DNA from: Owenia fusiformis
Taxonomy: Eukaryota > Annelida > Polychaeta > Sabellida > Oweniidae
NCBI GenBank assembly: GCA_903813345.2
Contig: CAIIXF020000005.1
Span: forward strand, 34,041,375 to 34,105,374
Reading direction: 5' to 3'
Length of the DNA: 64,000 nt
The notes beneath the pieces are model-generated. The model was not told where the DNA came from. It searched no databases and was given only the letters and a program-made list of their open reading frames with translations. Below are positions 7,101 through 57,955 of the stretch, one piece after another. Each line of letters starts with the position of its first letter. The stretch's first letter is position 1. Position numbers and translations under genes: made by a program.

Positions 7101-10100
7101 TCTGTGGACATCTAACTATTGTATATTCCATAGAGTCTGATTCATGAAATTGAGTAGTATGTTGTCTGTTACAATATTTGGGTTGAAAAACTTTGTGAGT
7201 GAAATTTCATGAATTTTCAGTTACACTCTCAACATGTAGAGTCATCAGAATCAGAAAAAAGGATTTAAAAGTTTATTTAAAGTAGGCTACTGCATTACAT
7301 GGGAAATTGAGGATTTTAAATTTTTTAAAACTTTAGAACATTTGTTCACATCAGGACCAAGTAGTAGGACCTTTTCAATAATACAAAGTATTTTTAATTG
7401 TGGGAGAAAAGTTTGATATTTGTAACATACATAACTGAACTAAGAGATAAAAACTGGTTAATACTGTTAAAATAGATATTACAGTTTTTAGAAAAGTGTA
7501 TTTTGCTTATAGAATGACCCTGGTACTCTGCTAAAGTGTCTTACAATCACAACATGCATGTTACAAGATGTCTCCATGAAGTCCCTTTCACCAACACTGC
7601 AGACTTTGATGGAAACACTGGTATGTGCATTTTTCCTTATAAACATATTTTACTATTTTTGTGGAAATATTTAATGCACTATAGTCTATTGTAGCCCTCC
7701 ATGGACTGCAGTGAATCAAAAATAATACATTTGGTTTCTGGTTTTACACAAATAAAAGGGTTTTGTTTCCATATACATGTAGTATAATTGATAGTATTCC
7801 TCCCAGAATTTTTTTTCTTTTGATTTCTCAGTTAACTCATTTTGACTAAAATATTTTAAACTGGACAAAACACTCCAGTAATACCAATGATAACTATGTT
7901 TGATTTAATTGGTTTATATTATAACGCAGATTCTGCCATGTATACCAAATGAGGACCCTGCTGTGCGTAACCAGGCTGTGAAGGCACTTGGTCTCTCTTG
8001 TCTACTGAGCAAAGACACTGCAAGGGCCCATTTGCTACTCTTCATGCAGGTAAGAAAGGTTGAGTTGAACATGCACTGTATGTGTTTTATTTTAAGATAA
8101 GTACTTCACTGTTAGTGCAGGTTTAGAAAATAATACAACACAATAGATCTGAAATATTTTAACACAAACTTTGTTTATTTAGGAACAATAATAAATTCTC
8201 TTTTCATATTAGTTATCACTCGCTCACTTTTAAAACTACAGTACATGTACTAGAATTTCTTAAGATACAGCGTTAAAAGGCTGTCCAATCAAATCCAGCT
8301 AGAATGTAGTAGCTGTTTCACATTTGCTCTTGGTGTGCAATTGATTTCCATATTGTTATTTTTCAAAAAATCAAAAAAATCTGACTTATTGTTTCAGATT
8401 TCGCGTGTTGATGCCTGTGAGGTTCAGATCACTGCCTTACATGTTATATTTGACCTGCTTCACACATTTGGCATGGAATCATTTGATGTTGATGAGGATG
8501 AAGAGGAAAATGCAGAAGATGTGGAACTCCCAAAAGGTGAGGAGTGTTTTAAAATGACAAGAACGGAAATGACAGGAATTAGCAAGGAATTAAGTAAACA
8601 GACATGTAGCCATGAAAACCGTAAATAGAAATGGCAAAAAAATCATCACTCATTCAACTTTCTGAAGAAATGAGAATTTCATTGATTGTTTTTAGTAAAC
8701 TAATAGCATTTACTTTAGCATAATAATTACAGCAGTTATATATTTTCTATAGTGAACTATAGTCTATTGGTTTTACAGAAGAAGCTGATGAAAGGTCTGA
8801 GGTGGAGAGTACAACGTCATCAACTGAGAAAATGCATGCTGGCAAGACCACCAAGAGCATATTGTCTATCCTGATTGGGCTGCTGGATGAGGAGGTAGGA
8901 ATAAAGATATTCAGTCGGTGTTCTAATTTACCTTTTAATGACTAATAGAGATAAAGACTCTCTACACTAGTGTTCTGAAAGTTTTTCTTAACTGAGCAGG
9001 CTTATTCATGAATTGCAAAATGTGACAAGTTATCTGTTACTTCTAGAAATGGGCTTATGTGAAATTCATTGCATCTTTCAGGGAACTGAGATTCGTACTG
9101 CAGCAGCTGAGGGTCTCGCAAAGCTCCTACTTAGTGGTAGAGTTCTTTCCAGTAAGCTCTTGTCCCGCTTGATACTGCTCTGGTACAACCCAGTTACTGA
9201 AGGAGACTCCCACCTGAGACATTGCCTGGGAGCATTCTTCCCTATGTTTGCATTTGCTGGAAGGTAAGTAACTGTCTGTGTTTAATGATTGACAGTTTCT
9301 TCTGAAAAATGTGATGATGGTCAGTTTTACAAAATGAAATTGTGTAAATGAAGACACTGGTGTCACCTGTGATATGTCTTTCCCTGCATTTTTATAGATC
9401 TAACCAAGAACTGGTTGCTGAGTGTTTCACGCCAACTCTCAGGACACTGTTCAATGCCCCTGCCACAAGTCCCCTAGCAGAAGTTAATGTCAACAATGTC
9501 TCTGAGCTACTTGTCCAGCTGACCAGTGCTAAACATCTTATGAACAATAACAACTCAGCTCTCCTTCAGGTAGGTTTGCATTCAAGAAACTTCTGATAAG
9601 TCACTTGTATATCATGTGATCAATCATGAAAGATTTCATTGGTTAACTTAAGTCATGAGATTGATCAACAATGTCTTAATTGGTTAACTAGCAATCATTC
9701 TTAGCTGGAAACTTCATTTGTGACCCCAAATTCTTAGATCTGTGTACGATTCTTACTATAATATTTTCATTCCAGGAGACATCTCTTCATGATGACATTG
9801 CCATTAGAGTTTGCAATGATATCCTTGAAGAGCCCAACTCGTTCAATGTTCGCAATCTATGCAAAATCCTCAACAGTTTAGAGCTGACACCAACCAATGC
9901 TACAAATAACAAAGACCTGAAAGTGCTTGCTGATCAGATGGTGGCGGTAAGTTATGAAGTGTTGTAGCAACTGAGTAGTTGAGACATTGAAAATTGATTT
10001 GCACCCGATTGAAAATTTCCTTGCATCAAGTTCAAAATTGCTTGAATTCAGTTGAATTCAAAATATATTCAAACTTAGTTGAGAAATTGGAATTTTGTTA

Positions 10101-13100
10101 AAATAGTGGGATATTTTGGTATATTTGGTAATTTCTCGGGCAGAATAGGGAAAATGAGACATTTGAAATCAGTTGAGAAGCAATTAAAAATGTTGTATGA
10201 TTTTTCTTCAGTATACTGAGATAAAGTATATTTTTATTTATTATATTTATTCATTACTTAGGAGGTGAAAGATAAGCAGTGCGCCAAGACCCTTGAGAAG
10301 TTCCAGAAATCTTTAACTGACATGATTTCTTTAAATGAGTCCCAAATTGAGAGGTCTGTCCAAGAAGTCAACAAAGATAAACAGGTATGTTTTTATCATC
10401 AAGTTTATTTTTATAAAAAAAATGAAATAAAATAAAAAAATCAAGTTTATTTTTATCAAAGTGCCATATTGTTGTCTTGTCTTTGGACAATCTAGGCGCC
10501 ACACAAATCTTGTCATCTAAACTTCGGAAAAACCACTCATCGTTCAATTTTACAGATGCAAGAGCAGATTAGGAGCAATGTCTGATTTGGTTTGGGCATT
10601 CTTTTGAAATTGCATGGTGGCTATTTTGCAATATTTATCATAAATAATGTGTGTCACTTCAAAACTTATTTTAAACTGAAAAATATGTTTTCTGTACTAA
10701 AATTGAATTCAAAAGTATATGAAAAACTCTTAACGTTGAACCTAATATATATCTTCCTCAGGTGGAAAGTGTAACCACTAATCAAGATGAGGAACCTGAA
10801 GCAGAGAGAAATGAAGCTGCAGAAGATAAAGACAATCAGAAGAAGGATGCAGAAGAAGGTAAGTAGTGAACACACATGAGAAAAGATCATGGTGCACTGC
10901 ATAGTGCATATGTATAGTATATCCAAGCAAAGTAGGTAATAGGAGGTAATAGAATAAACTGACATTTGTATAAGTTCTGTTTTTGCTTTTTTTTCACAGA
11001 TCAGTCCACTGGAACGCAAGTTGAAGCTAAATCCGTGGAGGAAGGTGAAACTGAACCAGATGAGGGTGTTCCAACTGCAGTTGAAGCTTCGAAGGACGAT
11101 GCAACTGAACCTGTGGAAGTTGAAAAAGATGCCCCACTTGAAAGTAGTCAAGAGGTAAACTATCCTTCACCTTCAAAGTTAATGTCACATGGTGAGCTAT
11201 TACAAAAAAAGAGTGTATATTACATAAAGAATGGATGCATATCACAGTCACCATTTATATCTTTAACATTTATAAAGTGAATCATGTTAGTGATCAGTTT
11301 TGCTTTATATACACTTAACTCATTATGGGTAGGAATGTGTAATAAAGTTAATAAATCTAAATCCTAGAGAACCCCCACACCTCCACAGAGTGACCTTTTG
11401 TCTAAAAATCAATTTCCTATAATAATATATATATAAATATAAAGTATAGGGTGTTTCATTTTTGGAATTTTTTTCTGATCAAGTTGTTATTCATACATTA
11501 TGATCTATGGTTAGTAGGGACCGCACAAAAAAATGTCAGCCAAATCGGACATTGTTTGCCTCACCCCATCAAGCCATCTTCATTTGACACATTTTAGCAT
11601 GAATACATTAGATTCAATTATGAAACATGTACTTTATTGAAAACTGACATATAAATTAGTCCTATATTCTAGTGATATAATGAATTACAATGTCAAGTGA
11701 CATTTGAAGATGTTTTGAATGCATTGATTTGCTTTCTATTGATACATGTTTCTAACTTTATGCTGCAAAAAGATAAAATTGATGACGCCCACTTTCTTAT
11801 ATTTTTCCAGGGGTAGGGCACTATAACGTGTTATTAAAAATATGAAATAGTACTTAGTCATTATAATAGTTGCATTAAAATATCACCTATTTTATATGTC
11901 AGTTTTCAATTTAGTACATGTTTCATAAGTGAATCTAATGTATTCATGCTAAATGTGTCAAATAAAGATGGCTTGAGGGGGTGAGGCAAACGATGTCCGA
12001 TTTGGCTGACATATAATTGTAATGTTTGTTAAACGACAAAAAAACTACCACCACCGGCCAGTGATAACAAAAGAATTGCCAGTGTTGTCACTAACAACTT
12101 CTTGTCCAAGGTGTTGTCCTTTTGGTTTCTAACTTAGTATGAGATATTGTTGCATCTTAGTATAGATGTATACCAGTGCCAGATTTACAGATGAGGGTAA
12201 TCTCATAGTCTATCAAATTCATCTTCCTGTATGTTACATAAGTCAAAATAAATGTAAATATATAAGTACATGTCTCAAAGTGGTGGAAATAAAGAAAAAT
12301 TAACATATTAAGGGACCATATTGATACAATCATTTTTCATATAAAAAATTTATGATGATAATTATATTTTAGGTTGACTGGCTTCAGTTGAACCCAATGG
12401 ATAAAAAATGGTTCATTTTGTAAGAGTCATATCCGTACTATGAGTCTTATTTTCCATTATCAAACTTTATTTTAATTATTACTTCCTATTTTGAATATGG
12501 TATACAAACTTGATAAGGCAGATGATTTCAAGATTATAAGGGTTTTAATATGAGGTAGAACTAGTTTCACAGGAAAGAAATGAATAGAATCAAATGTCAC
12601 ATGATCGTGGATTGTGTTCATTTGTGTTTGTTATGTCCATTTAACTTCTTGCTGACATTCTTGTATGATAACACCTGTGTATAATGAACACTGATTGCAA
12701 TGTTTCTCTGTAGCCTTTGATGCTTTCTTACATATAATACCTCAATTATGTAAATTATTATTGTATTCAGACTCCTAGAGAGACAAACTATTTCTCTGCA
12801 ATTCTAAGAAAAAATGGAAAAATTATCCATTCAGATCCACCTCTCCTTTAATCAGTCATTATCATTTATATTTATAGAGTGACACTTATAAGACCGCTGA
12901 TGATGGGAATGATTCAAGTTCCTCAGAAAGTCCTGCCAGGAAAACAGCAAGGAAGACACCCTCTAGGAAAGGTAAGTGAATTGGCCGGTGTAAAAGGGTA
13001 GGAGGTCCTATCAAATTATGGTCCTACTCTCCATTGATTTATATGGTGACCTAAATACAACGCTTTCCCTCATTACCTTATACGCAATCGGGGCCAGTAA

Positions 13101-16100
13101 GGGCCGTTAACAAAGGGGACCATAATTCCTGGGGGACCATCATTTCTTTCACACCGGATCACTGATCTCAGAGTGCTATAATTATAGATGCATGATAAGT
13201 TGATTACACATCACATGACTAATTTAAGCTGTCACTTGTGTCAAAAACATTAAAGTAAAATCTGTCTTAGTGAACATATCTCTTTAGTAAACACCTGTCT
13301 CTTGTGGACATGCTTCCTCCGCAGTCACACTCTACTGACTTCTGTATAGATTACAGTACCCTCTCTGTTACAGTAAACATGCATCTACAAACATCTACTG
13401 CAAAAAAATGTTCATTATACAATACATGTACACAAGTTTTACTGCATGCTTTCAAATTGTCTTATATATTTGAGTTAATAGAAAATGAAAGCATTGATGA
13501 ATGTAAATATGTATTTCCAGGTGAACCAGAGACAGCCACTCCAGGCAGTGTTACAAGGAGATCCAGTAGACTCTCAAAGTCCAACACACCAGCCCCCTCC
13601 CCTGTATCAACATCCACAATAGCCACTTTATCTTCCCAAAAAACAGGCTCCAAACTCAAAACAAATGCTGATTCCAAAACAAAAAAAGTCCCACCCAAAA
13701 ATGATTCTAAATCAACTCCTAAAGGGAATACTAAAGCTGCAGCCAAACCTACTGTTCCTAAGACCGGTCCCAAAGCTGCAGTTAGGTCTAGCACAACGGG
13801 AGCTGCAAAATCTGCCCCTGCACCAGTCTCAAAGGCTGCCAATAAGCCTGCACCTGAGCTGGAAGAAGGAGAAAGGTAAGTTGAGTTGAAAGTAGGACTG
13901 GGACTGTGACCATGATCATAGTGAAGATGTAGTGAGCTTATTATGTGGTCAGTTGAAGATGGCCATGCTCACCCAACGTGAAAAAATCTTAAAATTAAAG
14001 GTTATTCCTTGCCATGCCATTTCTATCCTGATATTATAGCTATAATCATATATTCATTTAAAAATGGCGGCCATTTTAGTGCGATTTTACAGTAATTTAG
14101 GTACAATGTGTAAAACTGTAATAGCAATATGTTTTAAATGTAAAAAAATTATGTAGGACATTTATAAAGCTAGAAATGTAGATATCAAAGAAGGAAATAG
14201 TAGCCATCTTAAAAAATGGTGGCCTTTACTCGCTTTTTTACGATTTTTGTTGTAACTCGAAAAGTAGTGGAGCGATTTTGTTCATATTTGGTATGTGAAT
14301 ACAATGACCATGGCACACTGTCTAATGACACTTTTGGTAGAAGGCGGCCATTTTTCAAAAAGGCCGCCATTTTAACGTATTTTATTATAACTTGAAAAGT
14401 AGTGGAGCGATTTTGTTCATATTTGGTATGTAAAAACTAGAAGCAGGGCACACTGTCTATTGACACTTTTGGTACAAGGTGGCCATTTTGAAAATTTTTT
14501 GCTATATTCTTTGTTTGTAAAATGCCAGCCATGGCTGTTCGATGGGATTTGCTATGCTTTGGCATTGCTGTTGTCTAGTTTAATGTATGTACATTAACCC
14601 CCCAGGCAGATATATACAAATGTTTCCATAGTGTGTGTCATATATCATTTTACAGCTTATCTAAGGTTACATTGATTTGCCAAATATTATGGTTCAACTC
14701 ACAAATCTGAAAAAGTTACAGGCATTTCAAAACTTAGTGTTCGGTCAAATTTAAGTTCAGTTTAGTATCCTAGAAACAGTTCTGACCTGAATTTGGCTAA
14801 AAGTAAAACTCTTCTGCTGCTTTCAACATGGCCTAGGGAGACACACTATGCATCTTTTATTTCCCAATTTGTAATTGGAGTTTATAATTGAAAATAAAGT
14901 AACTTCAAGCAGCTATATGAGTTTACATTAGGTCTATTTGCCTTGCAATTATGAATTTTATCAAAACATTTTTAATATAAAACGAATTGCATTAGCTTAC
15001 TTGTGAACATTTCATAGGCATTCGATACTATATCAAAATATTTCTAACATGAGAAATGAGTTTTATGTTATTAACCAGAGCAGTATCAGCACATTTACCA
15101 ATTAGTAATTACATGTAGTTGCAATGTTATTTGTTGGAAATACACTGTATATTAAATGTAGTTTTAATGCTACTTAAGCTACTCAATTAATGAGCAATTG
15201 CAACTGTTGTAGCTCAGGGTTCATTTTGGAGCTTTTCTTTGCACTATGATTAATATTCTTTTATGATCACACTGGATGTGATTTCATATTCAGAAAATAG
15301 TTGACTTCAGAAAAATTATACTCCAGATGTATTATATCCTGATGTGCAGTTGTTTGTTTGTTTGTTTGTTTATGTATTCTATTCAAGCTACAATTGGTAA
15401 GTCAACATAATTTGGAAATCGTAGAACTAAGAATCCCAATTTCAACTTTTCTTGACTGAAATATCTCAAATTATTAAAAAATTATTATTATGACTATGAA
15501 CAAACTTTGGGATTGAAAGTAAAATAACATGAGAGATTACATGCTATCTAATGAACTAAAACGATCCTTTTAAGTTGCAATAATTTTATTATGGTCTAAA
15601 TTTTGAAACCATGAAAAGAATAGAAATTAGACGTTTCGTTCATTTCTCAGTAGATAGTCAGTGATGCTAAATTTATTGTAAAGTCCAATGTAAGGCAAAC
15701 TATTTTGGGTTTTCCTATTTTCTTCTTGGTAAAACTGTACCAATCCAGTCGTCAATATTCAACATATTCCAGAAGACTGAAGATAAGCTGATATGGATTG
15801 ATGGGCCATTGCATTTGACATCTCTCCGATCAATGGTGAGGAACATACGCTTTGCTTGCCCTGGATACAGCTTATCAAGCTGTCTAGTGCGCTACATAAG
15901 CCCAAGGAGCTCAATGACTGATGGAATATATTCATGCATTCTGTATCTACACTTGCCACACAGCTGCCTGCAAATAAGACAAAATTTCATCAGACTAAAA
16001 TACAAATAAACAAGGCATTAACATGCAGATTGTCAATAGCCGCAATTTGTTACAGCCGCCGAACACCAACCGCGGAATGCCATCGCAAATGGTAACACAA

Positions 16101-19100: not shown

Positions 19101-22100
19101 GGATAGGGGATATATCTTACCAGCTTATCTCCCTAAAACTCTCCTTGGCATAGGATAAACACATGTACATAATAGTGATAAAAACACCCCAGGGGGTGTA
19201 TGACTTATGACAATCTAAAAATATTAAAACGGCGTATTGATATGTTGTTAATCTTATATGAAAATTTGTTTCAATCCCAAAGGTACATTTATCATTGGTG
19301 TTACAATCATGAATGTGTCATCCAAATATAAGTTATGAAAGTCAAACTGGTCAATAACATTATACAGGGTGTTCCAAAAGTAACAGGACTGGTGCTGGCA
19401 TTTTGTCAAATCTGTATGGAGTGTCTTCAGATTTACACAAATTGTACTTTGATGTATTACAACTAAAATTGTGAAGTTTCAGAAAAAAATATAAAATGTG
19501 GGTAGAGTTATGGTTACTATAGTAACATGACATCACAATACCCGGGGCAACTTTTTCATGAAAATGTGATATCCAAAATTTTTGTATGACTGAAGAAAGT
19601 ATCGAATTCACCTATTACAACACAACATTTCTTGTTTGTTTTATTAGTTGTTTTGTTGTAATGGTGTTGCTTTACAACTCCGCTACAAGTATGATTTCAT
19701 AATAATAATATCTATTTACTAATTTACTTTCCTGGAATATCACTATGTATAACAGTTTGCACAATTAACGATTGAGTTTTTGAAAAAACGCAATTTGAAG
19801 CCAGTCATTCAACTTGATAACGTGCCTTCCCGCAAGTCAGCATTAAAGACCACTGCCGCTATAGAAGAGCTAGGTGTTGATGTCTAAAACCATGCACCAT
19901 ACTCTTATGATCATTCAGTATCTAATTTTTACTTATATGGAGAATGGAATCCTAATCAGCGCGGTATGACCTTTAAAGATGAGAATGACCTGCTCCTAGT
20001 TGTCCAATGGACCCTGCGTGACATGTCCTCAGATTGGTTCACTTTTGTGTTTGAATCATGGATCCAGAGTGCTATTCTTATACTGATCAAAGAGGAGCCT
20101 ACTTTGCAAAGTGAGGATACATAGGAATATCAACTGATGTAAAGCAAATCTAATTTTCACCAGCTGAATTGTTGCATTCAACTTTTATATGGGTTGTTCA
20201 AAATGCTTAAAGTCTGAAATTTTCTGGGTGGAATGTTGCCCCGGGTATTGTGATGTCATGTTACCATAGCAACCATAACTCTACCCGAATTTCATAATAT
20301 TTTTTGAAACTATACAGTTTTAGTGACAATACATGAAAGTACATTATGTAAAATTTTCAAGACGATTGGTGCATATTTAACAAAATACCAGCACCAGTCC
20401 TGTTACTTTTGGAACACCCTGTAATGTATAAAAGGATATAAGAAAGTATTTGAATGATGTAAAAAGATAAATGTAAAAAGGTACATCTGTTAAAAAAGTC
20501 CTAATAAGAATACTATATCTAGACTAATTATATGTTTTTCAAAAAACTCGCTTTAAAATCAAAAAGTTTTTGAATTTTTGGTTGAGTCTGGAGTTGAATT
20601 TCAGATTATACCCCCTCGAGTTTTAATGCTTATTTTGCCATAGCTGGTTCTAAATTTGAAAATTATCAGTCTGTCTTGTGTTGTTACTAAATATTAACAA
20701 CAAATCTTCGAAGATGGCAGCCTATTGGAACTGAGCACTACATTTTTAAGTGATCAATATTGACCATATCAAACATTTTCTTGTGTTTTGCTAAACATGG
20801 AAAGTATCTAAATGGTTATAGCTACCATATTTAAGGAGAGACATGGCATGACAAGGAATATACCTTAAAGGCACTTTCTCAAAGTGATATACCACTTAAC
20901 CCAGCTTTATCTCCAGTTTTATAATGACCCAAAAATCAAAAAACAGATGATAGATAAAATAATGTTCAATCTTTTGTACACATGTTAGAGACAGCCTAGA
21001 TTAACAATTGATTATGTTTTGGGCAGTCATCTTGTTAACTTAGCCATTTTAGGTGTTTTTCAATAATTCAATGTCATCACCATCTCAAAATTCTGTTTAT
21101 CAAATTCTCTTTAATTTGTACACGCATTAGAGGCTAGCAACTTCTCTAATATTAGGTGGCTATATGGTTGTGTAATTTTATCCATATACTGTATCATGTA
21201 CCTTGATTAATAACATAGGATAAGCATAAGTTTATTTTAATTAGCAAACCTTTGCATGACATACCTGCATATACATACTGCATATAAGTCTTCAGCTTAT
21301 ATGTTGTATTGATTGATCATAATATAATCCTAATTTATTATCCCATCAAACAAAGCTCTGAGGGATATATGGAACGCCTCTGTCCGTCCGTCCATCTGGG
21401 CAATAACACAAATACCGTTGTCCAGATCTTTTCATGTTTTGTACACATGCCTTATGGGTGTAGAAGCTCTGCTCGAAAACTGATTTTCAAAATGGCCGCT
21501 CATTTAAAAATGTATGTGGCCATTTTTATGTGTGTTTAATTTGACCATTTTTGCTATAATTGAATAAGTAGTGGAAGGATTTTGTAAAAATGAGATTCGC
21601 TATGCTTTGCTGTTAATGTTATCGATGTTTTTTCAATAAAAGTTTGCCATGATCTACATTTTGGGGGGTTTTAAGGAAGGCGAGTGAGATCAGGCACCTT
21701 TAATAAAAGTGTTTGAAACATATTCACAATTATTTTAGTGACAGTGAAGATGTGTTTTCTCCAACAACCGTAACACCCCTTAGGCGCTCCAGCAGAAAGC
21801 GACAGGGAGACAAAAATGTTGCTGTATCTGCATCTCCTAAGCTTCGTTTAACAGAGGTTTTATCTGGTAATGAAGGACAGAGTGAGAGTGATTCACCAGT
21901 GAGAAAGGTCCGCCCGAAAAGGTGAGTAGACTAACAACATAGCCTATACTAATAATGCAATCCTGAATAATTTTCTTATTACCACCAATGCATCTCTTAC
22001 AACCAGCATTAAAAGAAGTTATGAAGTTCCACTAGTTATAATTTTCATAATAAACTGTATCCTAATATCTTAATTATAGTAAGTAATAAATAAAAACTCT

Positions 22101-29699: not shown

Positions 29700-30610
29700 A
29701 AGACAAAGCTGCAGCTAAACCTACTGTTCATAAGACCGGTGTGAAAGAATTTATGGTCCCTCAGGGATTATGGTCCCCCTTTTTAAAGGCCATTACTGGC
29801 CCTGATTGTGTATTATAATAAGGGAAAGAGGTAACCATATAAATCAATGGATACACCATAAATTAATAGGACCTCCTACCCTTTTACATCGGACCCAAAG
29901 CTGCAGTTAGGTCTAGCACAAGGGGCGTTGCCAAACCAGTCTCTAAGGCTACCATTAAAACTGCACCCGAGCTGAAGGAGGGAGAAAGCGTAGCTGGGTG
30001 AGTTCATTGTGGTCACTGTAGCCTGGTGTAATTTCAACCCTTTAAATGGATTTTTTTCATGTTTTCTTTATTTCATGATAATAAGTCATACAATACAGTA
30101 GTATTTTTACAATAGTAAAAAAGAGTAGTACCTATATTGTGTCAACCATTCGTCAATTTTCTCACCCTCATTTCAACAGATTCCCTTCCCCAAGATAATA
30201 TCGAACTTCTCTATTTCGATGTTGTTGAATTCCACATGCATGTCTTACAACAACATACGACATATGGTCTATTGCAGCTGCAGCATGCAACCAGCATGAA
30301 CACATTTGGAAATTAAAACCACCTCTCCTAAATTTCCACCAATAATAATTTACCATGCTAAACTCTTCAATCCAAAAGTATATTATTTCTAAAGCGAATG
30401 TTTTAGATGAGAACAAGAAATGAGAGCCAATGTATGAACCTTTGAAAGGTGTTGAAGCAAATAGTAAGAAAAAAAGAACAAGGGATAGATCCCTGTGTGG
30501 CACAAACTCCTCAATAAATAGACGAGCCCAGAAGATTTGGACCTTGGCTAATACTCTGCAGTCACATATTGGAAGCCAGCTTTTGTTTTGGGGGACTGGA
30601 ATGTTGAACA
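29700..30610 (+). pseudogene. NCAPG: Partial NCAPG duplicate (parts of exons 21 and 23)
   Basis: Bases 29,706-29,735 plus 29,893-29,999 match the Lys/Ala/Pro-rich end of NCAPG exon 21 (CTGCAGC(T/C)AAACCTACTGTTC, GCTGCAGTTAGGTCTAGCAC). Bases 30,440-30,605 match the last exon and 3' UTR (GCAAATAGTAAGAAAAAAAG, CACATATTGGAAGCCAGCTT). Exon 22 is not found. A Ginger1-like MITE splits the first part. In the second part the NCAPG stop TGA reads AGA. Intron-like sequence remains between the parts, so this is a segmental copy, not a processed one. Not expected to be functional. Confidence 0.8.
29740..29888. mobile_element. 149-bp Ginger1-like MITE, copy 2
   Basis: Inverted relative to copy 1 at 12,989-13,153. 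It begins TGTGAAAG and ends CTTTTACA. Target duplications are CCGG (29,736-29,739) and a mutated TCGG (29,889-29,892). The parental exon at 13,762-13,772 reads ACCGGTCCC with a single CCGG, which is the empty site. Confidence 0.8.
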
Positions 30611-39669: not shown

Positions 39670-40350
39670 GTCACACCGGAAAAGCCTGACAACGGTAAAG
39701 TCAGATACCGTTGCCCCAAATGGCGGACGTAACCGTCGCTTCAACTCTTTAATCACCTGGTCCTCGTTACATGGGACTTTATCGTCGCTTATTCTGTGCA
39801 TATGTTAAGCTCGTGTGATTATACAAAATTCCAATTTCTATCAAATGGGGTCGCGAATTGCCACAATATAGCGTCTTGGATATCATCAAAGACAACGGAA
39901 TCTGAATTTGAAATGATTTACAAAGACAACGGCATATGGTAAGATGTGACAACGGACTATGGTGGATGTATTGCATTGGAGCATAGGAAAATGACAACGG
40001 TAAATAGACACTTTACCCTTTTCTTTACATATACCGTTGTCAAATATAACCGTTGTCACCTCGATTTTACATCACATTTGACCCACACCTACCGTTGTCA
40101 TTTATACAGTATCAGTTGTCCTGTATCATATTCCGATCGGTAAAATTAAAGGCTTTATTTTGATGGTAGAACATATTTAAATTTATGATCAGTAGAAAAA
40201 CACTTTGAGTGATTGCTGTACCAAAGGAATTTAATCTAGTCGCTCTATTAAACATACAGTTCATGAAAATCCAATTGTAGCGACGGTTATGTTCGCCATT
40301 TGTGACAACAGTATCTGACTTTACCGTTGTCAGGCTATTCCATTGTGAAG
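39670..40350. mobile_element. 680-bp TIR element with scattered GACAACGGTA motif
   Basis: Inverted arms of about 65-70 bp (39,670-39,740 and 40,279-40,350) share GCCTGACAACGGTAAAGTC and AAATGGCG. GACAACGG occurs about six times in the left half and its complement CCGTTGTC about four times in the right half, like binding sites arranged symmetrically around the centre. No transposase. Target duplication not resolved. Confidence 0.7.
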
Positions 40351-40911: not shown

Positions 40912-42854
40912 AACTAGACATGTAAATTGAACAAGTTCAATTTAAGACTCCAGATTTAAAACTTTTTTAAGCTGAGTCATCCAAAATACTGTAAGCTGAG
41001 CCATTCAGAATAAGCTGAGTCATCCAGAATACAGACATTTAGACAACTCTTAAGTAGCTTATCTTCGTCTACATTGGCTTAACATGGGGATATCATAATA
41101 TCGACTTTTCGAGACTTCAAACAGCTATAACTATCTAACCAGAATTTGGGTCGAAATTTGGTTTGCAGATTCGAATTTCTGAGAAAATTCTACGTTTGTG
41201 TCATAACTCATACATTAAATTTTGAGAACTTTTTATGTTGACCTACTTTCCGGACGCCATTCCTCAAAATCGGTAAGAGTAATCAAAAAAGACAGTTACA
41301 ATAATGAAAGGACTGTCTTTAAGCTACATGCTGAAAAAAAGATAAAGGAATAATGCCGAATAGTGACAAAGATAATTGACATAACATGGGATATCAAAAT
41401 ACCAATTTTTTAATTTTTCAAAACGCCATTACTTCCAAACCAGGTGTCGGATTGAAATTTGATTTGCAGATTCGGATTCCTGAGAAAATTCTACCCTTAA
41501 TTCATAACTCATACGTTAAATTTGGAGAAACTTTCATGTTGACCTACTTTTCGGACACTATATCTCAAAAGTGGGTCAAAATACTTTCTGACGGCAAAAG
41601 GCTAACACTATTAGCACACTCTTTGCTACCTGTATACAAAATTTTGAAGCAAATAATTAAAGTGTAGTGTCAGAATCGCAAAAATAAGTTAAAACTATAA
41701 ATTTGACCTAGATTTTGACCCAGGCATTTTGGTGACCAAATTGTGAAGCTAGCTAGCTTTTGAGGTCCCTTTCTTTTATAGGCTTTCATTATGTGAAGCT
41801 GTACTCAGTCTTTATCTCGTATTTTACACTTCAAAGAAATCTTTTTTCCCGTTGGCATAACATGGGGCACCAAATTTAGCGATTTTTGAGCTTTCAAAAT
41901 GACATAACTTCCGAACCGGCAGTCGGATTGAAATTTGGTTTGCAGATTTGGATTCCTGAGAAAATTCTACCCTTAATTCATAACTCATACGTTAAATTTG
42001 GAGAACTTTTTAGTTTGACCTACTTTTCGGACACCATATCTCAAAAGTGGGTCAAAATACTTTCTGACGGCAAAAGGCTAACACTATTAGCACACTCTTG
42101 GCTACATGTATACAAAATTTCGAAGAATATAATTAATATGTAGTGTCAGAATCGCAAAAATAAAAAAAAACTTTGAATTTGACCTAGATTTTGACCTAGG
42201 CATTTTGGTGTCCAAATTTTTATGAAAACAAGGTCTTGTGGTCCCTTTCTTTTATGGGCTTCCATTATGTTTAACTGTGCTAAGTCTATATCTCGTATTT
42301 TACACTTCAAAAAAATATTTTTTCCCATTGAATTAACATGGGGCACCAAATTTAGCGATTTTTGAATTTTCAAAACGCCATAACTTCTGAACCGGAAGTC
42401 AGATCGAAATTTCGTTTTCAGATTCGGAATCCTGAGAAAATTTCCTATAAGACTGATATCCTGGACATTGGATTCGGAGAAATATTTTTTGGACCTCGTT
42501 TTCGGACACTGATATCTCGAAATCGGTTTGAGATACCAAAAAACTAAATCGACCCTAGGTTTTCTACTTTTTTATGAGGAACACAATGAAAAAAACCAGG
42601 ATCAAAAATATTGAAGGACGACCGAGATAATGGGAAAAAGTGACAAAGTACTGGATTTGACCTAGTTCTTGACCTTTGACCTAGATAAAAATTTGACCTA
42701 ATTTCCCAGAAAGCCGGATACAGTCTTAAGTTAACCATGTAAGTTGGATTAAGTAAGCTGTTATAGTTGACGAGAAATTTGGTAAGGAGGAAGAAAAAAG
42801 AATAACTAGATTTGTGAAATTGAACAAGTTCAATTTAAGACTCCAGATTTATTT

Positions 42855-43092
42855 TACCTAGATAGATCAGTAAAGAGCTGAGTAAGTAACTGAGTAATTA
42901 GCTGAGTAAGTACCTTAGTAGTAGTTGAGTAAGTAGCTGAGTAAGTAACTGAGTAAAAAGCTGAGTAGGTAGCTGAGTAAGTAGCTGAGTAAGTACCCGA
43001 GTTAGTAGCTGAGTAAGTTGCTAAGTAAGTAATAACTAATTAAGTAATTGAGTAAGTAGTCAAATAAGTAGCTGAGTAGGTAGAGAGGTAAA
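42855..43092. repeat. 12-bp minisatellite GCTGAGTAAGTA (unit 2)
   Basis: Degenerate tandem copies of GCTGAGTAAGTA. Equivalent tracts occur at 46,605-46,862 and 48,512-48,700. The tract is placed right after the unit's 5' palindrome. Confidence 0.8.
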
Positions 43093-46000
43093 GTAGGGTA
43101 TGCAGGAATTTTTGAAAGTATATTTGATCAATCTGCATCGTGAATACTGGCAAGTGCGAATTTCAAACTTCAAAATGGCGTAGAATCTAAACCTGGGGTC
43201 GGATTGCAATTTTTGCTACAAGTATACAAAATTTCGGAGAATATCATTGAAGTGTAGTGTCAGAATCGCAAAATAAGAAAAAACTATGAATTTGACCTAG
43301 ATTTTTTAAACTAGGTATTTTGTTGTCCAAACTTTGAAGGAACGTAGCTTTTGAGGTCCCCTTGTTCTATGGGCTTTCATTATGTTTAGCTGTACTCATT
43401 CTATATCTCGTATTTTTACACTTCAAAAAATTATTCGGTCCCAATGATTTAACATGGGGCACCAAATTTAGCGATTTTTGAGATCTCAAAACGCCATAAC
43501 TTCAGAACAAGTAGTCGGATCGAAATTTGGTTTGCAGATCTAGATTTCTGAGAAAATTCTACCCTTAATTCATAACTCATACGTTAATTTTGGAAAACTT
43601 TTTACTTTGGTCTACTTTTTGGACACCATATCTCAAAAGTGGGTCAAAATACTTTCTGACGGCAAAACGCTAACACTATTAGCATACTCTTTGCTACCTG
43701 TATACAAAATTTTAAAGCAAATCATTTAAATATAGTGTCAGAATCGCAAAAATAAGGGAAAACTATAAATTTGACCTAGATTTTGACCTAGGCATTTTGG
43801 TGTCCAAATTTTGGAGCTAAGTAGCCTTCGAGGTCCCCTTCTTTAATAGGCTTTCATTAAATTAAGCTGTACTCAGTCTATATCTTGTATTTTACACTTC
43901 AAAAAAATCTTTTTTCCCATTGCCATAACATGGGGCACCAAATTTAGCGATTTTTGAGCTATCAAAACGACATAAATTCCAAACCAAAAGCCGGATTGAA
44001 ATTTGGTTTGCAGATTTGGATTCCTGAGAAAATTCTACCCTTAATTCATAACTCATACGTTAAATTTGGAGAACTTTTTAGTTTGACCTACTTTTCGGAC
44101 ACCATATCTCAAAAGTGGGTCAAAATACTTCCTGACGGCAAAAGGCTAACACTATTAGCACACTCTTGGCTACATGTACACAAATTTTTGAAGAATATAA
44201 TTAATCTGTAGTGTCAGAATCGCAAAAATAAGGAAAAACTTTGAATTTGACCTAGATTTTGACCTAGGCATTTTGGTGTCCAAATTCTTATGAAAAGAAG
44301 GTCTTGTGGTCCCTTTCTTTTATGGGCTTCCATTATGTTTAGCTGTGCTTAGTCTATATCTCGTATTTTACACTTCAAAAAAATATTTTTTCCCATTGAA
44401 TTAACATGGGGCACCAAATTTAGCGATTTTTGAATTTTCAAAACGCCATAACTTCTGAACCGGAAGTCAGATCGAAATTCGATTTTCAGATTCGGAATCC
44501 TGAGAAAATTTCCCATAAGACTAATATCCTAGACATTGGATTCGGTGAAATTTTTTTTGGACCTCGTTTTCGGACACTGATATCTCGAAATCGGTTTGAG
44601 ATACCAAAAAACTAAATCGACCCTAGGTTTTCTACTTTTTTATGAGGAACACAATGAAAAAAACCAGGATCAAAAATATTGAAGGACGACCGAGATAATG
44701 GGAAAAAGTGACAAAGTACTGGATTTGACCTAGTTCTTGACCTTTGACCTAGATAAAAATTTGACCTAATTTCCCAGAAAGCCAGATACATTCCCTAGTT
44801 AATCATGTAAGCAGCTTAAAGTAAGCTCTTCTAGTTGGTGAGAAATCTGGGAAGGAGGAAGAAGAATAATAACTAGACATGTAAATTGAACAAGTTCAAT
44901 TTAAGACTCCAGATTTAATACTTTTTTTTAAGCTGAGTCATCCAGAATACTTGTAAGCTGAGTCATCCAGAATAAGCTGATCGAGTCAGCTAGAATTTAG
45001 ACATTTAGACAACTCTCAATTTTTTATCTTCGACTCCATTGGCTTAACATCGGGATATCATCATATCGACTTTTCGAGACTTCAAACCGCTATAACTATC
45101 TAACCAGAAGTTAGATTGAAATTTAGTTTAAAGATTCGGACTCCTGAGAAAATTCTACCCTTAATTCATAACTCATATGTAAAATTTGGAGAATTTTTTA
45201 TTTTGACCTACTTTTCGGACACCATATCTCAAAAGTGGGTCAAAATACTCTCTGACGGCAAAAGGCTAACACTATTAGCCCACTCTTTGCTACCTGTATA
45301 CAAAATTTTGAAGCAAATCCTAAAAGTGTAGTGCCAGAATCGCAAAAATAAGGAAAAACTATGTATTTGACCTAGATTTTGACCTAGGGATTTTGGTGTC
45401 CAAATTTTAAAGCTAGATAGCCTTCCAGGTCCCCTTCATTTATAGACTTTCAGAATCTTAAGCTGTACTCAGTCTTTATCTGGTATTTTACACTTCAAAA
45501 AAATCTTTTTTCTCATTGACATAACATGGGGCACCAAAATTAGCGATTTTTGAGCTTTCAAAACGCCATAACTTCCCAACGAAAAGTCGGATTGAAATTT
45601 GGTTTGCAGATTCGGATTCCTGAGAAAATTCTATACTTAACTCATAGCTCATATGTTAAATTATGAGAAATTTTTATTTTGACCTACTTTTCGGACACCA
45701 TATCTCAAAAGTGGGTCAAAATACTTTCTGACGGCAAAAGGCTAACACTATTAGTACACTCTTTGCTACCTGTATACAAAATTTTGAAGCAAATTATTAA
45801 AGTGTAGTGTCAGAATCGTAAAAATAAGGAAAAACTATGAATTTGACCTAGATTTTGACCTAGGCATTTTGGTGTCCAAATTTTGAATTTAGGTAGCTTT
45901 TGAGGTCCCCTTCTTTTATAGGCATTCATTATGTTAAGCTGTGCTCAGTCTATATCTTGTATTTTACACTTCGAAAAAGTCTTTTTTCCCATTGGCTTAA

Positions 46001-46440
46001 CATGGGCACCAAATTTAGCGATTTCAAAACGCTATAGCTTCCGAACCGGAAGTCGGATCAAAATTTGGTTTGCAGATTTGGATTCCTGAGGAAATTTTAC
46101 ACTTATTTTATGACTCATACGTTGAATTTGGAGATATTTTTCGTTTGACCTACTTTCCGGACGCAATATCTCAAAATCGGTAGAGGTAATTAAAAAACTG
46201 ATAACTCACTGTCGAATTGTCTTTTTCTTGGCTACACGGTAAAAAAAAAATTTTGAAAAAATATTGAAAAATGACAAAGATAATTCACAAAATGATAATT
46301 TGACCTAGATTTTGACCTTTGACCTAGATAAAAATTTGACCTAATTTCCGGGAAACTAGGTCTCATTGCCTTTTTAACTATGTAAGCAGATTTCAGAAAG
46401 TCCCTCTAGTTGCTGAGAAAACGCGGAAAGAAAGAATAAT

Positions 46441-46554
46441 AAGAAAACTGGCAAAAGCAATAGACTCCAGATTTTCAATCTGGAGTCTAATAATAATAAT
46501 AAAGAAAACTGGCAAAAGCAATAGACTCCAGATTTTCATCTGGAGTCTAATAAT
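46441..46554. repeat. Two tandem hairpins closing array unit 3
   Basis: Two copies of AAAACTGGCAAAAGCAAT followed by GACTCCAGAT-loop-ATCTGGAGTC, then TAATAATAA. The next unit begins immediately afterwards with AACTAGA. Confidence 0.8.
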
Positions 46555-46604
46555 AACTAGATTGGTAAATTGAACAGAGTTCAATTTAAGACTCCAGATT
46601 GATT

Positions 46605-46862
46605 TACTTGAGTAAAGAGCTGAGTAGGAAGCTGAGTACGTAGATGAGTAGGTAGCTGAGTAAGTAGCTGAGTAAGTAGCTGAGTATGTAGCTGAGTAAG
46701 TAGCTGAGTAAGTAATTGAGTAAGTAGCTGAGTAGGTAGCTGAGTAAGCAGCTGAGTAGGTAGCTGAGTAAGTAGCTGAGTAAGTAGCTAAGTAAGTAAT
46801 AACTGATTAAGTAATTGAGTAATTAGTAGTCAAATAAGTAGCTGAGTAGGTAGGGAGGTAAA
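46605..46862. repeat. 12-bp minisatellite GCTGAGTAAGTA (unit 4)
   Basis: About 20 degenerate copies of the same 12-mer as in unit 2. Confidence 0.8.
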
Positions 46863-48511
46863 GTAGGGTATGTAGGAATTTTTGAAAGTATATTTGATCA
46901 ATATGCATCGTGAATACTGGCAAGTGCGAATTTCAAACTTAAAAATGGCGTAAAATCTTAACTGGGGGTCGGATTGCAATTTTAATTGAAGATCCGGATT
47001 CCCGAGAAAATTCTACCCTTAATTCAAAACTCATACGTTCAATTTGGAGAACTTTTTATTTTGACCTACTTTTCGGACACCATATCTCAAAAGTGGGTCA
47101 AAATACTTTCTGACGGCAAAAGGCTCTCACTATTAGCACACTCTTTGCTACCTGTATACAAAATTTTGAAGCAAATCCTAAAAGTATAGTGCCAGAATCG
47201 CAAAAATAAGGAAAAACTATGAATTTGACCTAGATTTTGACCTAGGCATTTTGGTGTCCAAATATTTAAACTAGGTAGCTTTTGAGGTCCCCTTCTTTTA
47301 TAAGAATTCATTATCTTAAGCTGTACTCAATCTATATCTCGTATTTTACACTTCAAAAAAATCTTTTTTCCTTGACTTTCTATCAGGATACCATCAGATC
47401 GATTTTCCGAAATTTCAAAACGCCATAACTTCCGAACCGGAAGTTGGATCGAAATTTGATTTAAAGATTCGGATTCCTGACAAAATTCTACCCCTAATTC
47501 ATAATTCATACGTTAAATTTGGCGAATTTTTATTTTGACCTAATTTTTGGACACGCCATAACTTTGGAACCGGAAGTCGGATCGAAATTTGGTTTGCAGA
47601 TTCGGATTCCTGAGAAAATTCTACATTTAATTCATAATTCATATGTTAAATTTGGAGAATTTTTTATTTTGACCTACTTTTCGGACACCATATCTCAAAA
47701 GTGGGTCAAAATACTCTCTGACGGCAAAAGGCTAACACTATTAGCACACTCTTTGCTACCTGTATACAGAATTTTGAAGCAAATCCTAAAAGTGTAGTGC
47801 CAGAATCGCAAAAATAAGGAAAAACTCTGAATTTGACCTAGATTTTGACCTAGGCATTTTGCTGTCCAAATTTTAATGCTAGATAGCCTTAGAGGTCCCC
47901 TTCTTTTATAGGCTTTCATTATGTTAAGCTGTACTCAGTCTATATCTCGTATTTTACACTTCGAAGAAGTCTTTTTCCCTATTGACTTAACATGGGGCAC
48001 CAAATTTAGCGATTTTGAGATTTCAAAACGCTATAACTTCTGAACCGGAAGTCGGATCGAAATTTTGTTTGCAGATTCGGATTCCTGAGATAATTCTACA
48101 CTTATTTGATAATTTACACGTTGAATTTGGAGAACTTTTTATGTTCTGACCTACATTTCGGACGTAATTTCTCAAAATCGGTAAGAGTAATCAAAAAACG
48201 ATCGATTTGCCTTTCGGAATTAGCTTTTTTTCTAAGGAACATGATGAAAAAAACCCGGAGCAAAAATACCGAAGGACGACTGAGAAAACTTGTAAAATAG
48301 TGAAAACCCACGATTTGACCTAGTTCTTGACCTTTGACCTAGATAAACATTTGACCTAATTTCCCAGAAACTAGGTTTCATAACCTAGTTGACTATATTA
48401 GCAGATTTAAGTAAGTCCTTCTAGTTGCTGAGAAAAAGTGTTCGGAAAGAAAGAAAGAATAACTAGATTGGTAAATTGAACAAAGTTCAATTTAAGACTC
48501 CAGATTGATTT

Positions 48512-51549: not shown

Positions 51550-53690
51550 GCACACACATTACACACAACTCTGTTCTAGTATCAAGGGGCAGATTTATTA
51601 AAATCATACATCTCCAAGAATAACCACACACATTACACGCAACTTTGTTCTAGTTTCGGTTCGGAGGAGGGAAAGATTTATTAAAATTACACATCTCTAA
51701 GAATAGCTACACACATATAACACTTAACTCTGTTCTACTATCCGGGGGATTTATTAAAATCATACATCTCCAAGAATAGCCACATATATATTACACGCAA
51801 CTCTGTTCTAGTATCAGGGGGCAGATTAATTAAAATCATTCATCTCCAAGAATAGTCACACACATATTACACACAACTCTGTTCTTGTGTCAGGTTTGAA
51901 GATTTAAAATGATCACACATCTCCAAGAATAGCCACATACATATTACACACAACTCTGTCCTTGTGTCAGGTGTGAAGATTTATAATGATCACACATCTC
52001 CAAGAATAGCCACACACATATTACACACAACTCTGTTCTTATGTCAGGTGTGAAGATTTATAATGATCACACATCTCCAAGAATAGCCACATACATATTA
52101 CACACAACTCTGTTCTTGTGTCAGGTGTGAAGATTTATAATGATCACACATCTCCAAGAATAGCCACACACATATTACACACAACTCTGTTCTTATGTCA
52201 GGTGTGAAGATTTATAATGATCACACATCTCCAAGAATAGCCACATACATATTACACACAACTCTGTTCTTGTGTCAGGTGTGAAGATTTATAATGATCA
52301 CACATCTCCAAGAATAGCCACATACATATTACACTCAACTCAGTTCTACTATCAGGGGGATTTATTAAAATCATACAACTCCAGGAATAGCCACATACAT
52401 ATTACACACAACTCTGTTCTTGTGTCAGGTGTGAAGATTTATAATGATCACACATCTCCAAGAATAGCCACACACATATTACACTCAACTCTTTTTTATG
52501 TCAGGTGTGAAGATTTATGATGATCACACATCTCCAAGAATAGCCACATACATATTACACACAACTCTGTTCTTGTGTCAGGTGTGAAGATTTATGATGA
52601 TCACACATCTCCAAGAATAGCCACACACATATTACACACAACTCTTTTTTTATGTCAGGTGTGAAGATTTATAATGATCACACATCTCCAAGAATAGCTA
52701 CATACATATTACACACAACTCTGTTCTTGTGTCAGGTGTGAAGAATTATAATGATCACATATCTCCAAGAATAGCCACATACATATTACACTCAACTCTG
52801 TTCTACTATCAGGGGATTTATTAAAATCATGCATCTCAAAGAATAGCCACATTCACATTACACACAACTCTGTCCTTGCGTCAGGTGTGAAGATTCATTA
52901 AAATCACACATCTCCAAGAATAGCCACACGCATATTACACACAACTCTGTTCTTATGTTAGGTGTGAAGATTTAAAATGATCACACATCTCGAAGAATAG
53001 CTACATACATATTACACACAACTCTGCTCTAGAATGGGGGGGGGGATTTATTAAAATCATACATCTCTAAGAATAGCCACACACACATTACACACAACTC
53101 TGTCCTTGTGTCAGGTGTGAAGATTTATAAAGACCACACATCTCCAAGAATAGCCACATACATATTAAACACAACTCTGTTCTAGAATCGGGGGGGGGAG
53201 AGATTTATTAAAATCATACATTTCCAAGAATAGCCACACGCATAAAACACACAACTCTGTCCTTGTGTCAGGTGTGAAAATTTATAAAGATCACACATCT
53301 CTAGGAATAGCCACACACACATATTACACACAACTCTATTCTTGTGTTGTGTGTGAAGATTTATTAAAATCACACATCTCAAAGAATAGCCACACACATA
53401 TTACACATAACTCTGTTCTTGTACCAGAGCAGGGAGATTTATCAAAATCACACATCTCCAAGAATAGCCACACACATATTACACATAACTCTGTTCTTGT
53501 ATCAGGGGGAGGGGAAGAATTATTAAAAGCACACATCTCCAAGAAAAGCCACCCATATATAACGCACAACTCTCTTCTTGTATCAGGGGGAAGATTTGTT
53601 TTAATCACACATCTCCAAGAATAGCAACGCACACATTGCAGTACACACAACTACAGATTAAAATTACACATCCCCGAGAATTGCCACACA
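51550..53690. repeat. 77-bp minisatellite, about 28 units
   Basis: Unit built from CACATCTCCAAGAATAGCCA, ACATATTACACACAACTCTG, TTCTTGTGTCAGG and TGTGAAGATTTATAATGAT. Central units are nearly identical; edge units are diverged, with G-runs replacing part of the unit. 77 is not a multiple of three, so ORFs across it are not coding. Confidence 0.92.
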
Positions 53691-54278: not shown

Positions 54279-54475
54279 TAGGTAGGTAGGTAGGTAGGTA
54301 GGTAGGTAGGTAGGTAGGTAGGTAGGTAGGTAGGTAGGTAGGTAGGTAGGTAGGTAGGTAGGTAGGTAGGTAGGTAGGTAGGTAGGTAGGTAGGTAGGTA
54401 GGTAGGTAGGTAGGTAGGTAGGTAGGTAGGTAGGTAGGTAGGTAGGTAGGTAGGTAAGTAGGTAGGTAAGTAGGA
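54279..54475. repeat. (GTAG)n microsatellite, about 48 copies
   Basis: Near-perfect GTAG tetranucleotide tract directly after the CACTA-like element, interrupted only by GTAA variants at the far end. Confidence 0.95.
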
Positions 54476-56089
54476 ATTTTTGACCGAAAGTCGGATTGAA
54501 ATTTGGTTTGCAGATTCAGATTCCTGGGAAAATTCTACCCTTATTTCATAACTCATACATTAAATTTCGAGATTTTTTTATTTTGACCCACTTTTAGGAC
54601 GCCATATCTCAAAAATGGGTCAAAATACTTTCTGACGGCAAAAGGCTATCACTATTAGCACACTCTTTTTTACCTGTATACAAAATCTTGAAGAAAATCC
54701 TAAAAGTGTAGTGCCAGAATCGTAAAAATAAGGAAAAACTATGAATTTGACCTAGATTTTGACCTAGGCATTTTGGTGTCTAAATATTGAAACTAGGTAG
54801 CTTTTGAGGTCCCCTTCTTTTATAGGAATTCATTATCTTAAGCTGTACTCAGTCTATATCTCGTATTTTACACTTCAAAAAAAAATTTTTTCCTTGACTT
54901 TCTATCAGGATACCATCAGATCGATTTTTCTCGAAATTTCAAAACGCCATAACTTCCAAACCGGAAGTCGGATCGAAATTTGGTTTGGAGATTTGGATTC
55001 CAGAGAAAATTCTTCCCTTAATTCATAACTTATATGTTAAATTTGGTGAATTTTTATTTTGACCTACTTTTTGGACACGCCATAACTTCTAAACCGGAAG
55101 TCGGATTGAAATTTGGTTTGCAGATTCGGATTCCTTGGAAAATTCTACCCTTAATTCATAGCTCATACGTTAAATTTGGAGAACTTTTCATTTTGACCTA
55201 CTTTTCGGACACCATATCTCAAAAGTGGGTCAAAATACTTTCTGACGGCAAAAGGCTAACACTATTAGCACACTCTTGGCTACCTGTATACAAAATTTTG
55301 AAGCAAATTATTAAAGTGTAGTGTCAGAATCGCAAAAATAAGAAAATACTATAAATTTGACCTAGATTTTGACCTAGGCATTTTGCTGTCCAAATTTTAA
55401 AGCTAGATAGCCTTCGAGGTCCCCTTCTTTTAAAGGCTTTCATTATGTTAAGCTATACTCAGTCTATATCTCGTATTTTACACTTAGAAGAAGTCTTTTT
55501 CCCCATTGACTTAACATGGGGCACCAAATTTAGCGATTTTGAGATTTCAAAACGCTATAACTTCCGAACCGGAAGTCGGATCGAAATTTTGTTTGCAGAT
55601 TCGGATTCCTGAGATAATTCTACACTTATTTGATAATTTACACGTTGAAATTGGAGAACTTTTTATGTTCTGACCTACTTTTCGGACGTCATTTCTCAAA
55701 ATCGGTAAGAGTAATCAAAAAACGATTTGCCTTTCGGAATTAGCTTTTTTTCTAAGGAACATGATGAAAAAACCCGGAGCAAAAATACCGAAGGACGACT
55801 GAGAAAACTTGTAAAATAGTGAAAAGCCACGATTTGACCTAGTTCTTGACCTTTGACCTAGATAAACATTTGACCTAATTTCCCAGAAACTAGGTTTCAT
55901 TACCTAGTTGACTATGTTAGCAGATTTAAGTAAGTCCTTCTAGTTGCTGAGAAAAAGTGTTCAGAAAGAAAGAAAGAAAGAATAACTAGACTTTGGAAAT
56001 TGAACGAAGTTCAATTTCAGACTCCAGATTTAGACCATTTTTAGCCGAGTCATCCAGAATAAGCCGAGTCATCCAGAATAAGATGGATG

Positions 56090-56268
56090 AATAAAATAGG
56101 AAGGTAGGATAGGATTGAATAGGAAGGAACGATAGGATAGAATAAGAAAGAAGGATAGGATAGAACAGAATAGGAAGAAAGGATATGATAGGAGAGGATA
56201 GGAAGGAAAAGATACGAAGGAAGGATAGATAGGAAGGATAGGATAGGATAAGATCAGATAGGAAGGAT
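56090..56268. repeat. GGATA/GGAAG simple-sequence tract
   Basis: Purine-rich mixed pentamer repeats (GGATAGGATA, GGAAGGA) in array unit 6, in the position taken by the 12-bp minisatellite in other units. Confidence 0.85.
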
Positions 56269-57714: not shown

Positions 57715-57955
57715 AATAATAAGAAGAAGAATAATAAGAATACTGGCAAAAACAATAGACTCCAGATTGACATCTGGAGTCTAATAATAAGAAAACTGGC
57801 AAAAGCAATAGACTCCAGATGAAATCTGGAGTCTAATAATAATAATAATAAGAAAACTGGCAAAAGCAATAGACTCCAGATTTTCATCTGGAGTCTAATA
57901 AGAAAACAGGCAAAAACAATAGACTCCAGATTTTCAATCTGGAGTCTAATAATAA
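57715..57955. repeat. Four tandem hairpins at the right end of the array
   Basis: Four units of 45-60 bp: AATAATAAGAAAACTGGCAA, an A-rich link, then GACTCCAGAT-loop(3-5)-ATCTGGAGTC and TAATAAT. Stems are 9-11 bp. The stem sequence is the same ACTCCAGAT that stands after the 5' palindrome of every array unit. Confidence 0.85.

Follow-up and report, generated by a model that had tools for sequence, protein, structure and literature searches.

The window, meaning the whole 64,000-nucleotide stretch analysed here (C5:34,041,375-34,105,374; 498-Mb genome of the annelid Owenia fusiformis), carries two copies of a short element that probably is a Ginger1-type miniature inverted-repeat transposable element (MITE). 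Copy 1 lies in a stretch that by eye looks like an intron of an NCAPG-region gene; copy 2, in inverted orientation and 80% identical to copy 1, interrupts a copied exon of that gene. Positions are those of the window; L numbers denote loci fetched from the genome.

Anatomy of the element and its family

The two copies and their flanks are as follows (target site duplications were read from the sequence unless indicated otherwise; terminal inverted repeats, TIRs, were delimited by arm alignment).

12985..12988, no strand: left target site duplication of copy 1, CCGG
12989..13153, + strand: MITE copy 1, 165 bp, TGTAAAAGGG...TTTCACA
12989..13030, + strand: 5' imperfect TIR of copy 1
13112..13153, - strand: 3' imperfect TIR of copy 1
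13154..13157, no strand: right target site duplication of copy 1, CCGG
29736..29739, no strand: target site duplication of copy 2, CCGG
29740..29888, - strand: MITE copy 2, 149 bp, diverged, member of the smallest of three groups
29889..29892, no strand: other target site duplication of copy 2, now TCGG by mutation (sequence and flank comparison)

An earlier note on this DNA had given both elements with these orientations, ends and flanks, and every coordinate that matters was right. Both copies are non-coding; their termini are TGT...ACA, and their inverted repeats, about 40 bp long, are imperfect. The left duplication of copy 1 begins about 13 bp past a consensus 5' splice site at 12,972 (by eye, from DNA alone).

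The element begins with TGTAAAAGGGTAGGAGGTCC and, on the opposite strand, with TGTGAAAGAAATGATGGTCC; on both sides the 10-bp block ATTATGGTCC, common to the two arms, follows. The termini are 5' TGTAA and 3' TGTGA (reverse complement), both of the form TGTNR, in the window copies and in the sampled copies, some of which have TGTAA at both ends. Gapped alignment of the 42-base ends gave a score of 35 (shuffle mean 17.8), which was reached by 2 of 5,000 dinucleotide shuffles. The longest open frame of the majority sequence encodes 38 amino acids. Exactly 165 bp was found in 30 of the 52 aligned sampled rows, and an internal 18-mer has 943 exact matches in the genome. Average-linkage clustering of 54 rows (the 52 sampled rows, the reference, which repeats L001, and copy 2) yielded three groups of 32, 13 and 3 rows, together 48 of the 54, and six single rows; mean divergence from the group's own majority sequence is 3.2%, 2.4% and 2.6%, respectively. 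The element is a high-copy and fairly young MITE family: short, homogeneous in size, without coding capacity, dispersed in many copies and little diverged within groups, with an imperfect TIR. Match counts exceed the number of independent insertions, because some copies travel inside other repeats.

Head-to-tail dimers of the MITE were observed at L080, L083 and L092. They share one junction (CATT|TGT), where the final bases of the first copy are missing and the second copy follows directly; L083 and L092 also have the same downstream flank.

The CCGG target duplication

The CCGG that borders the element lies outside the TIR and is a genuine 4-bp target duplication, as the earlier note had held; two clean filled/empty pairs, in which the empty site holds one 4-mer, and flanks that vary together in several copies establish this. 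The features that bear on the first pair are listed below.

13521..13875, + strand: parental exon of the NCAPG-region gene, with the empty site (limits by eye from AG/GT)
13764..13767, no strand: empty paralogous target, single CCGG (sequence and flank comparison)
29705..29988, + strand: copied exon split by MITE copy 2 (29705-29740 at 94%, 29890-29988 at 77%)

NCAPG is the gene name given in the earlier note, and it fits the match of five upstream open frames within 7,909-9,967 to the condensin subunit domain Cnd3 of Pfam (four of the five above the cut-off). The copied exon is a diverged duplicate of the exon at 13,521-13,875, and the flanks of copy 2 match both sides of the empty-site CCGG, with 94% identity along 36 bp on one side and 77% along 111 bp on the other. 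The order in the parental exon is AAGA-CCGG-TCCCAAAGC; in the copied exon it is AAGA-CCGG-[element]-TCGG-ACCCAAAGC. Comparison of copy 2 with 13,733-13,810 thus sets CCGG and TCGG around an inserted unit against a single CCGG, and the flank matches bear out the paralogous empty site of the earlier note.

Further pairs were sought by comparing the joined flanks of sampled copies with all genome sequence fetched by then. The second pair consists of L028 and L030 (filled) and L040:4972-5091 (empty), with 119 of 120 bases matching; the 4-mer is present once, as CCAG, in the empty locus, and as CCGG on both sides of the filled ones. The elements of L028 and L030, at sites near 1,500, occupy the same position of one larger repeat; 18 of their 165 bases differ, and the clustering places them in different groups (groups 5 and 2). 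Their left flanks differ at 4 of 300 bases; the right flanks differ at 67 of 300 without gaps, a count made nearly meaningless by an indel. Elements of different groups within near-identical left flanks suggest either that a single CCGG received two insertions or that gene conversion took place among the copies, and two groups at the same CCGG of one larger repeat would be as expected for a strongly sequence-specific target. The larger repeat itself has inverted matches of about 200 nt.

In a diverged third comparison, the joined flanks of L003 match L033, which has a single CCGG, at 66 of 90 bases; spanning matches of L088 to L033 and L080 are too divergent to judge. Two candidates were discarded: the spanning match of L075 to L030, which is a match to another MITE, and the Gypsy-borne insertion L002, whose relative L058 is deleted across the site, so that this pair was not used. 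The empty site of L002 had no match in an exact genome search.

Genome-wide, CCGG followed by the first 20 element bases has 527 exact matches and the reversed control pattern none, so the association of CCGG with the element is not due to chance; CCGG occupies 0.14% of positions in sampled sequence. The flank sets below were partly chosen by flank, and their proportions are therefore not genome-wide frequencies. L001-L008, which ranked highest in the first search, are a CCGG-leaning set since the query included both CCGG flanks; five of these eight have CCGG/CCGG, and the remaining ones CCGG/CCTG, CTGG/CTGG and CAGG/CCGG. L009-L038 are the first 30 of the 527 left-CCGG matches, with the 3' end sought within 900 bp; their right flank is CCGG in 18 of 30 and one step off in seven (CCTG 2, CCAG 2, CTGG 1, TCGG 1, CCGA 1), ATCA in one, and in four no 3' end was located. 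The end-finder slightly favoured matching flanks here, and two locus pairs share flanks, so that not all 30 are independent.

Flanks other than CCGG were also found, in genome-wide 20-mer counts that leave out 4-mers of the form CNNG except CCGG. The 20-mer preceded by a 4-mer not ending in G, and followed by T, has 50 exact matches. Among the 20 of these that were read, CCGT/CCGT was found by script in two and by eye in a third, L084 (the three copies being L078, L084 and L086); of the remaining 17, six match at three of four places and 11 at no more than two, and in several of these 11 an end is lost or displaced. The 20-mer preceded by a 4-mer that ends in G and does not start with C has 45 exact matches, nine of them with ACGG (left side only).

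The pooled set comprises 49 copies with distinct flanks that passed the end-match filter, after removal of copies whose 3' end was unclear, that lay near the edge of a locus or whose flanks were repeated. Left and right 4-mers are identical in 26 (22 CCGG, 2 CCGT, 1 CTGG, 1 AGGG), differ at one place in 15, at two in three, at three in three and at four in two. Among the 19 copies whose left flank is not CCGG there are four identical pairs, a number reached in 0 of 10,000 shuffles. The element thus inserts as a unit, duplicates 4 bp and prefers CCGG, with some CCGT. That CCGG is instead the repeat's own end, the flanks not being duplicated, would account for most sampled flanks being CCGG or one step off on both sides; the empty sites with one 4-mer refute it, and pairs of CCGT/CCGT, CTGG/CTGG and AGGG/AGGG exist, which leaves it next to no probability.

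Likeness to Ginger1 and rival readings

What is said here of published elements follows extracts of the works cited. Ginger1 elements have TGTNR termini and 4-bp duplications of CCGG (75%) or CCGT/ACGG (24%), TIRs of about 40-270 bp and lengths of about 2.6-7 kb; their transposase is Gypsy-integrase-like, their termini share the TGTNR pattern with Gypsy long terminal repeats (LTRs), and their excision mechanism is unknown according to the founding paper (Bao, Kapitonov and Jurka 2010, PMC2836005). The ends and the target preference of the MITE agree with that signature, as the earlier note had proposed. We consider a Ginger1-type MITE the best reading, at a probability of roughly 0.8; the label rests on end and target signatures, since the signature published for Ginger1 combines TGTNR ends with CCGG targets and a smaller share of CCGT. 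The MITE differs from these elements in lacking a transposase and in its length (165 bp as against about 2.6-7 kb). The founding paper (PMC2836005) already mentions, from Branchiostoma floridae, a few non-autonomous Ginger1 copies that have the same ends, which makes the MITE a new family of a known kind; its many hundreds of matches contrast with those few copies.

The element would accordingly be described as a gene-less miniature DNA transposon, presumably moved in trans by a Gypsy-integrase-like transposase of Ginger1 type. Such a transposase would bind the TGTNR...ATTATGGTCC arms and either excise or copy the element; it would then insert it with a 4-bp stagger at CCGG, or more rarely at CCGT, and host repair would leave the 4-bp duplication. 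The transposase, the binding of the arms and a cut-and-paste route rather than another one are parts of this scheme that we infer.

The support that the earlier note had named was found in part: there are many copies flanked by CCGG and some by CCGT, and the search for an autonomous element that has these ends and encodes a Ginger integrase found none. Candidates were scored with the Pfam rve profile (150 of 782), a GIN1 query (130 of 810) and a Ginger-like core query (150 of 887). The integrase matches are dominated by Gypsy-like ones, and Gypsy-like elements are abundant in the genome. Of the nine rve loci inspected, among 30 fetched, seven show a reverse transcriptase or RNase H by eye; in L054 and L068 integrase alone was seen in the stretch, L054 with a downstream envelope-like frame, and the short integrase match at C10:4393211 lies behind a Gypsy-type zinc finger. 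None of the 30 rve loci contains a match to the MITE. On C1 and C2, 85 integrase rows were compared with 122 listed ends, drawn from the first 100 of the 527 CCGG matches and two non-CCGG lists and thus covering part of the genome; only the integrase at C2:16138617 is within 10 kb of an end, at 5.6 kb from the complete MITE of L079.

The OTU or Ulp1 domain that accompanies the integrase and GPY/F of a Ginger1 transposase, and variant ends, were also followed. Of 58 OTU family matches, 33 lie in open frames of 2,554-3,377 amino acids; one of the three upstream regions read (L122) is without any 150-amino-acid frame and hence uninformative. These uninterrupted OTU frames (G000, e.g. C158, C515, C13 and C500), several with two OTU matches 1.5 kb apart, presumably form a large mobile or virus-like gene family. 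The 20-base end with a base other than T after GGTCC has 40 matches (21 A, 16 C, 3 G), of which 20 were read, together with L039. The nine GGTCCA copies read (eight and L039) share one common body, unlike the MITE. As a longer autonomous partner this class was rejected: near-identical upstream flanks in the four checked (L039, L113-L115) identify it as a truncated MITE end amplified inside another repeat. In each of the four, that repeat family includes the 20-bp fossil of a MITE end together with CCGG. In L110 (C10:4,050,667-4,050,907), a GGTCCG match and a candidate, the 217 bases read after CCGG and the 20-base end do not resemble the MITE body. In L012, L032, L104 and L105 the MITE body is lost part-way. 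The facing pair of L042, 7.1 kb apart, was rejected as a long element, being two separate MITE pieces with no open frame above 147 amino acids in the interval.

Several observations weigh against assignment to Ginger1. The TIR is imperfect and, at about 40 bp, only just reaches the published range of 40-270 bp, and the two ends of the element are identical at 13 of their first 20 bases (65%, by eye). No autonomous partner was found by the integrase, OTU, Ulp1 and shared-end searches among the matches scored and read; the integrase loci that were translated (nine rve loci and L116) look Gypsy-like by eye, no integrase was seen by eye upstream of OTU at L123 and L124 (among the three of 58 regions read), and of ten Ulp1 matches the one read is by eye a MULE-like transposase (L121, C1:9,450,200-9,452,600, with a 928-amino-acid frame, a SWIM-type finger and an Ulp1-like tail). 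CCGT and ACGG look rarer than the published 24% (nine ACGG among 45, four left CCGT among 20, beside 527 CCGG). In eight of the 49 copies the left 4-mer differs from the right one at two to four places, which we read as decay or lost ends. With the partner not found, membership in Ginger1 by transposase is unproven, and Ginger1-like is the supported term. The partner may be rare, intron-split, decayed, provided with somewhat different ends, or absent. Mobilisation in trans by the integrase of a Gypsy element or by a domesticated integrase, with no working Ginger1 transposase in this genome, appears very unlikely; if true, a DNA element would be parasitising a retrotransposon-type enzyme.

The main structural rival is a Gypsy-like retrotransposon in the form of a solo LTR or very short LTR element, because TGT...ACA ends and short duplications are common to both; the abundance of Gypsy-like elements speaks for it, as does the agreement of Ginger1 ends with the TGTNR pattern of Gypsy LTRs in the extracts of the founding paper. 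The MITE differs in its inverted arms, whose score so few shuffles reach, and in its strict CCGG target, strict 4-bp targets being unusual for LTR elements; it is also unmatched in the 30 rve loci, and no retrotransposon interior is linked to its copies in the loci read. Among 60 long matching loci that were fetched, 12 have a second MITE match and none a recognisable LTR pair: the two matches run in opposite directions in six (L005, L007, L026, L042, L075, L091), are head-to-tail neighbours in four (L038, L080, L083, L092) and are one interrupted copy in L040. L002 holds copies in the same direction 1.4 kb apart, unlike an LTR pair in that the upstream copy, which runs off the edge of the locus, is followed on the right by a CCGG of its own and the other has CCGG on both sides. 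Same-direction pairs 3.4 kb apart were rejected as LTRs too, since they are three copies of a larger repeat with two insertions, one of which has CCGG on both of its own sides. We hold the solo LTR to be quite unlikely.

A MITE of another or undescribed cut-and-paste superfamily that targets CCGG and has TGT...ACA ends would be in line with the weak, asymmetric TIRs and with a Ginger1 transposase not having been identified in the searches made. Both diagnostic features of Ginger1 are present in the MITE, the minor CCGT target included, and we know of no other superfamily that combines TGTNR ends with CCGG/CCGT duplications; this alternative, too, is unlikely. Ginger2/TDD elements resemble the MITE in their TGTNR ends and 4-bp duplications, and Ginger2 does not fit because its preferred target, as far as the extracts go, is the AT-rich RTATAY (PMC2836005) and not CCGG. 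IS481EU elements likewise have TGT...ACA ends and some 4-bp duplications; they are reported from parabasalids and have duplications of about 15 and 25 bp too (PMC10045372), none of which was seen by eye in the MITE flanks of L001-L038. A Ginger1-type MITE is accordingly retained.

In the open-access literature, at the level of titles and the starts of abstracts, no Ginger MITE from an annelid and no mention of this MITE family was found. Extracts report 98 Ginger elements in molluscs (PMC10294476) and coral MITEs with TTAA (PMC2872659); a term search for Ginger ends gave nothing in PMC12863088, PMC11292947 and PMC11371463.

Other repeats in the window and significance of the family

Two blocks of repeat units of about 476 bp lie at 41,059-48,145 and 54,365-57,728, with simple arrays of GTAG and AGCTGAGTAAGT nearby, and a 77-bp minisatellite of about 27 copies, for which a 457-bp period is reported too, at 51,551-53,637. 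An inverted repeat with arms of about 135 nt at 92% identity (11,525-11,659 and 11,887-12,020) is perhaps another small element. Three further inverted-repeat pairs (19,363-19,554 and 20,232-20,423; 39,671-39,744 and 40,275-40,348; 62,476-62,547 and 62,892-62,963), of 72-192 nt with spacers of 344-677 nt, are possible other small DNA transposons.

The MITE is a high-copy family whose target duplication reads unambiguously; without a confirmed Ginger1 partner it is an ordinary repeat family. Because its CCGG target contains a CpG, one could test whether insertion is linked to DNA methylation. If a Ginger1 partner were confirmed, the family would offer many natural substrates for the question of how a retroviral-type integrase became a cut-and-paste transposase.

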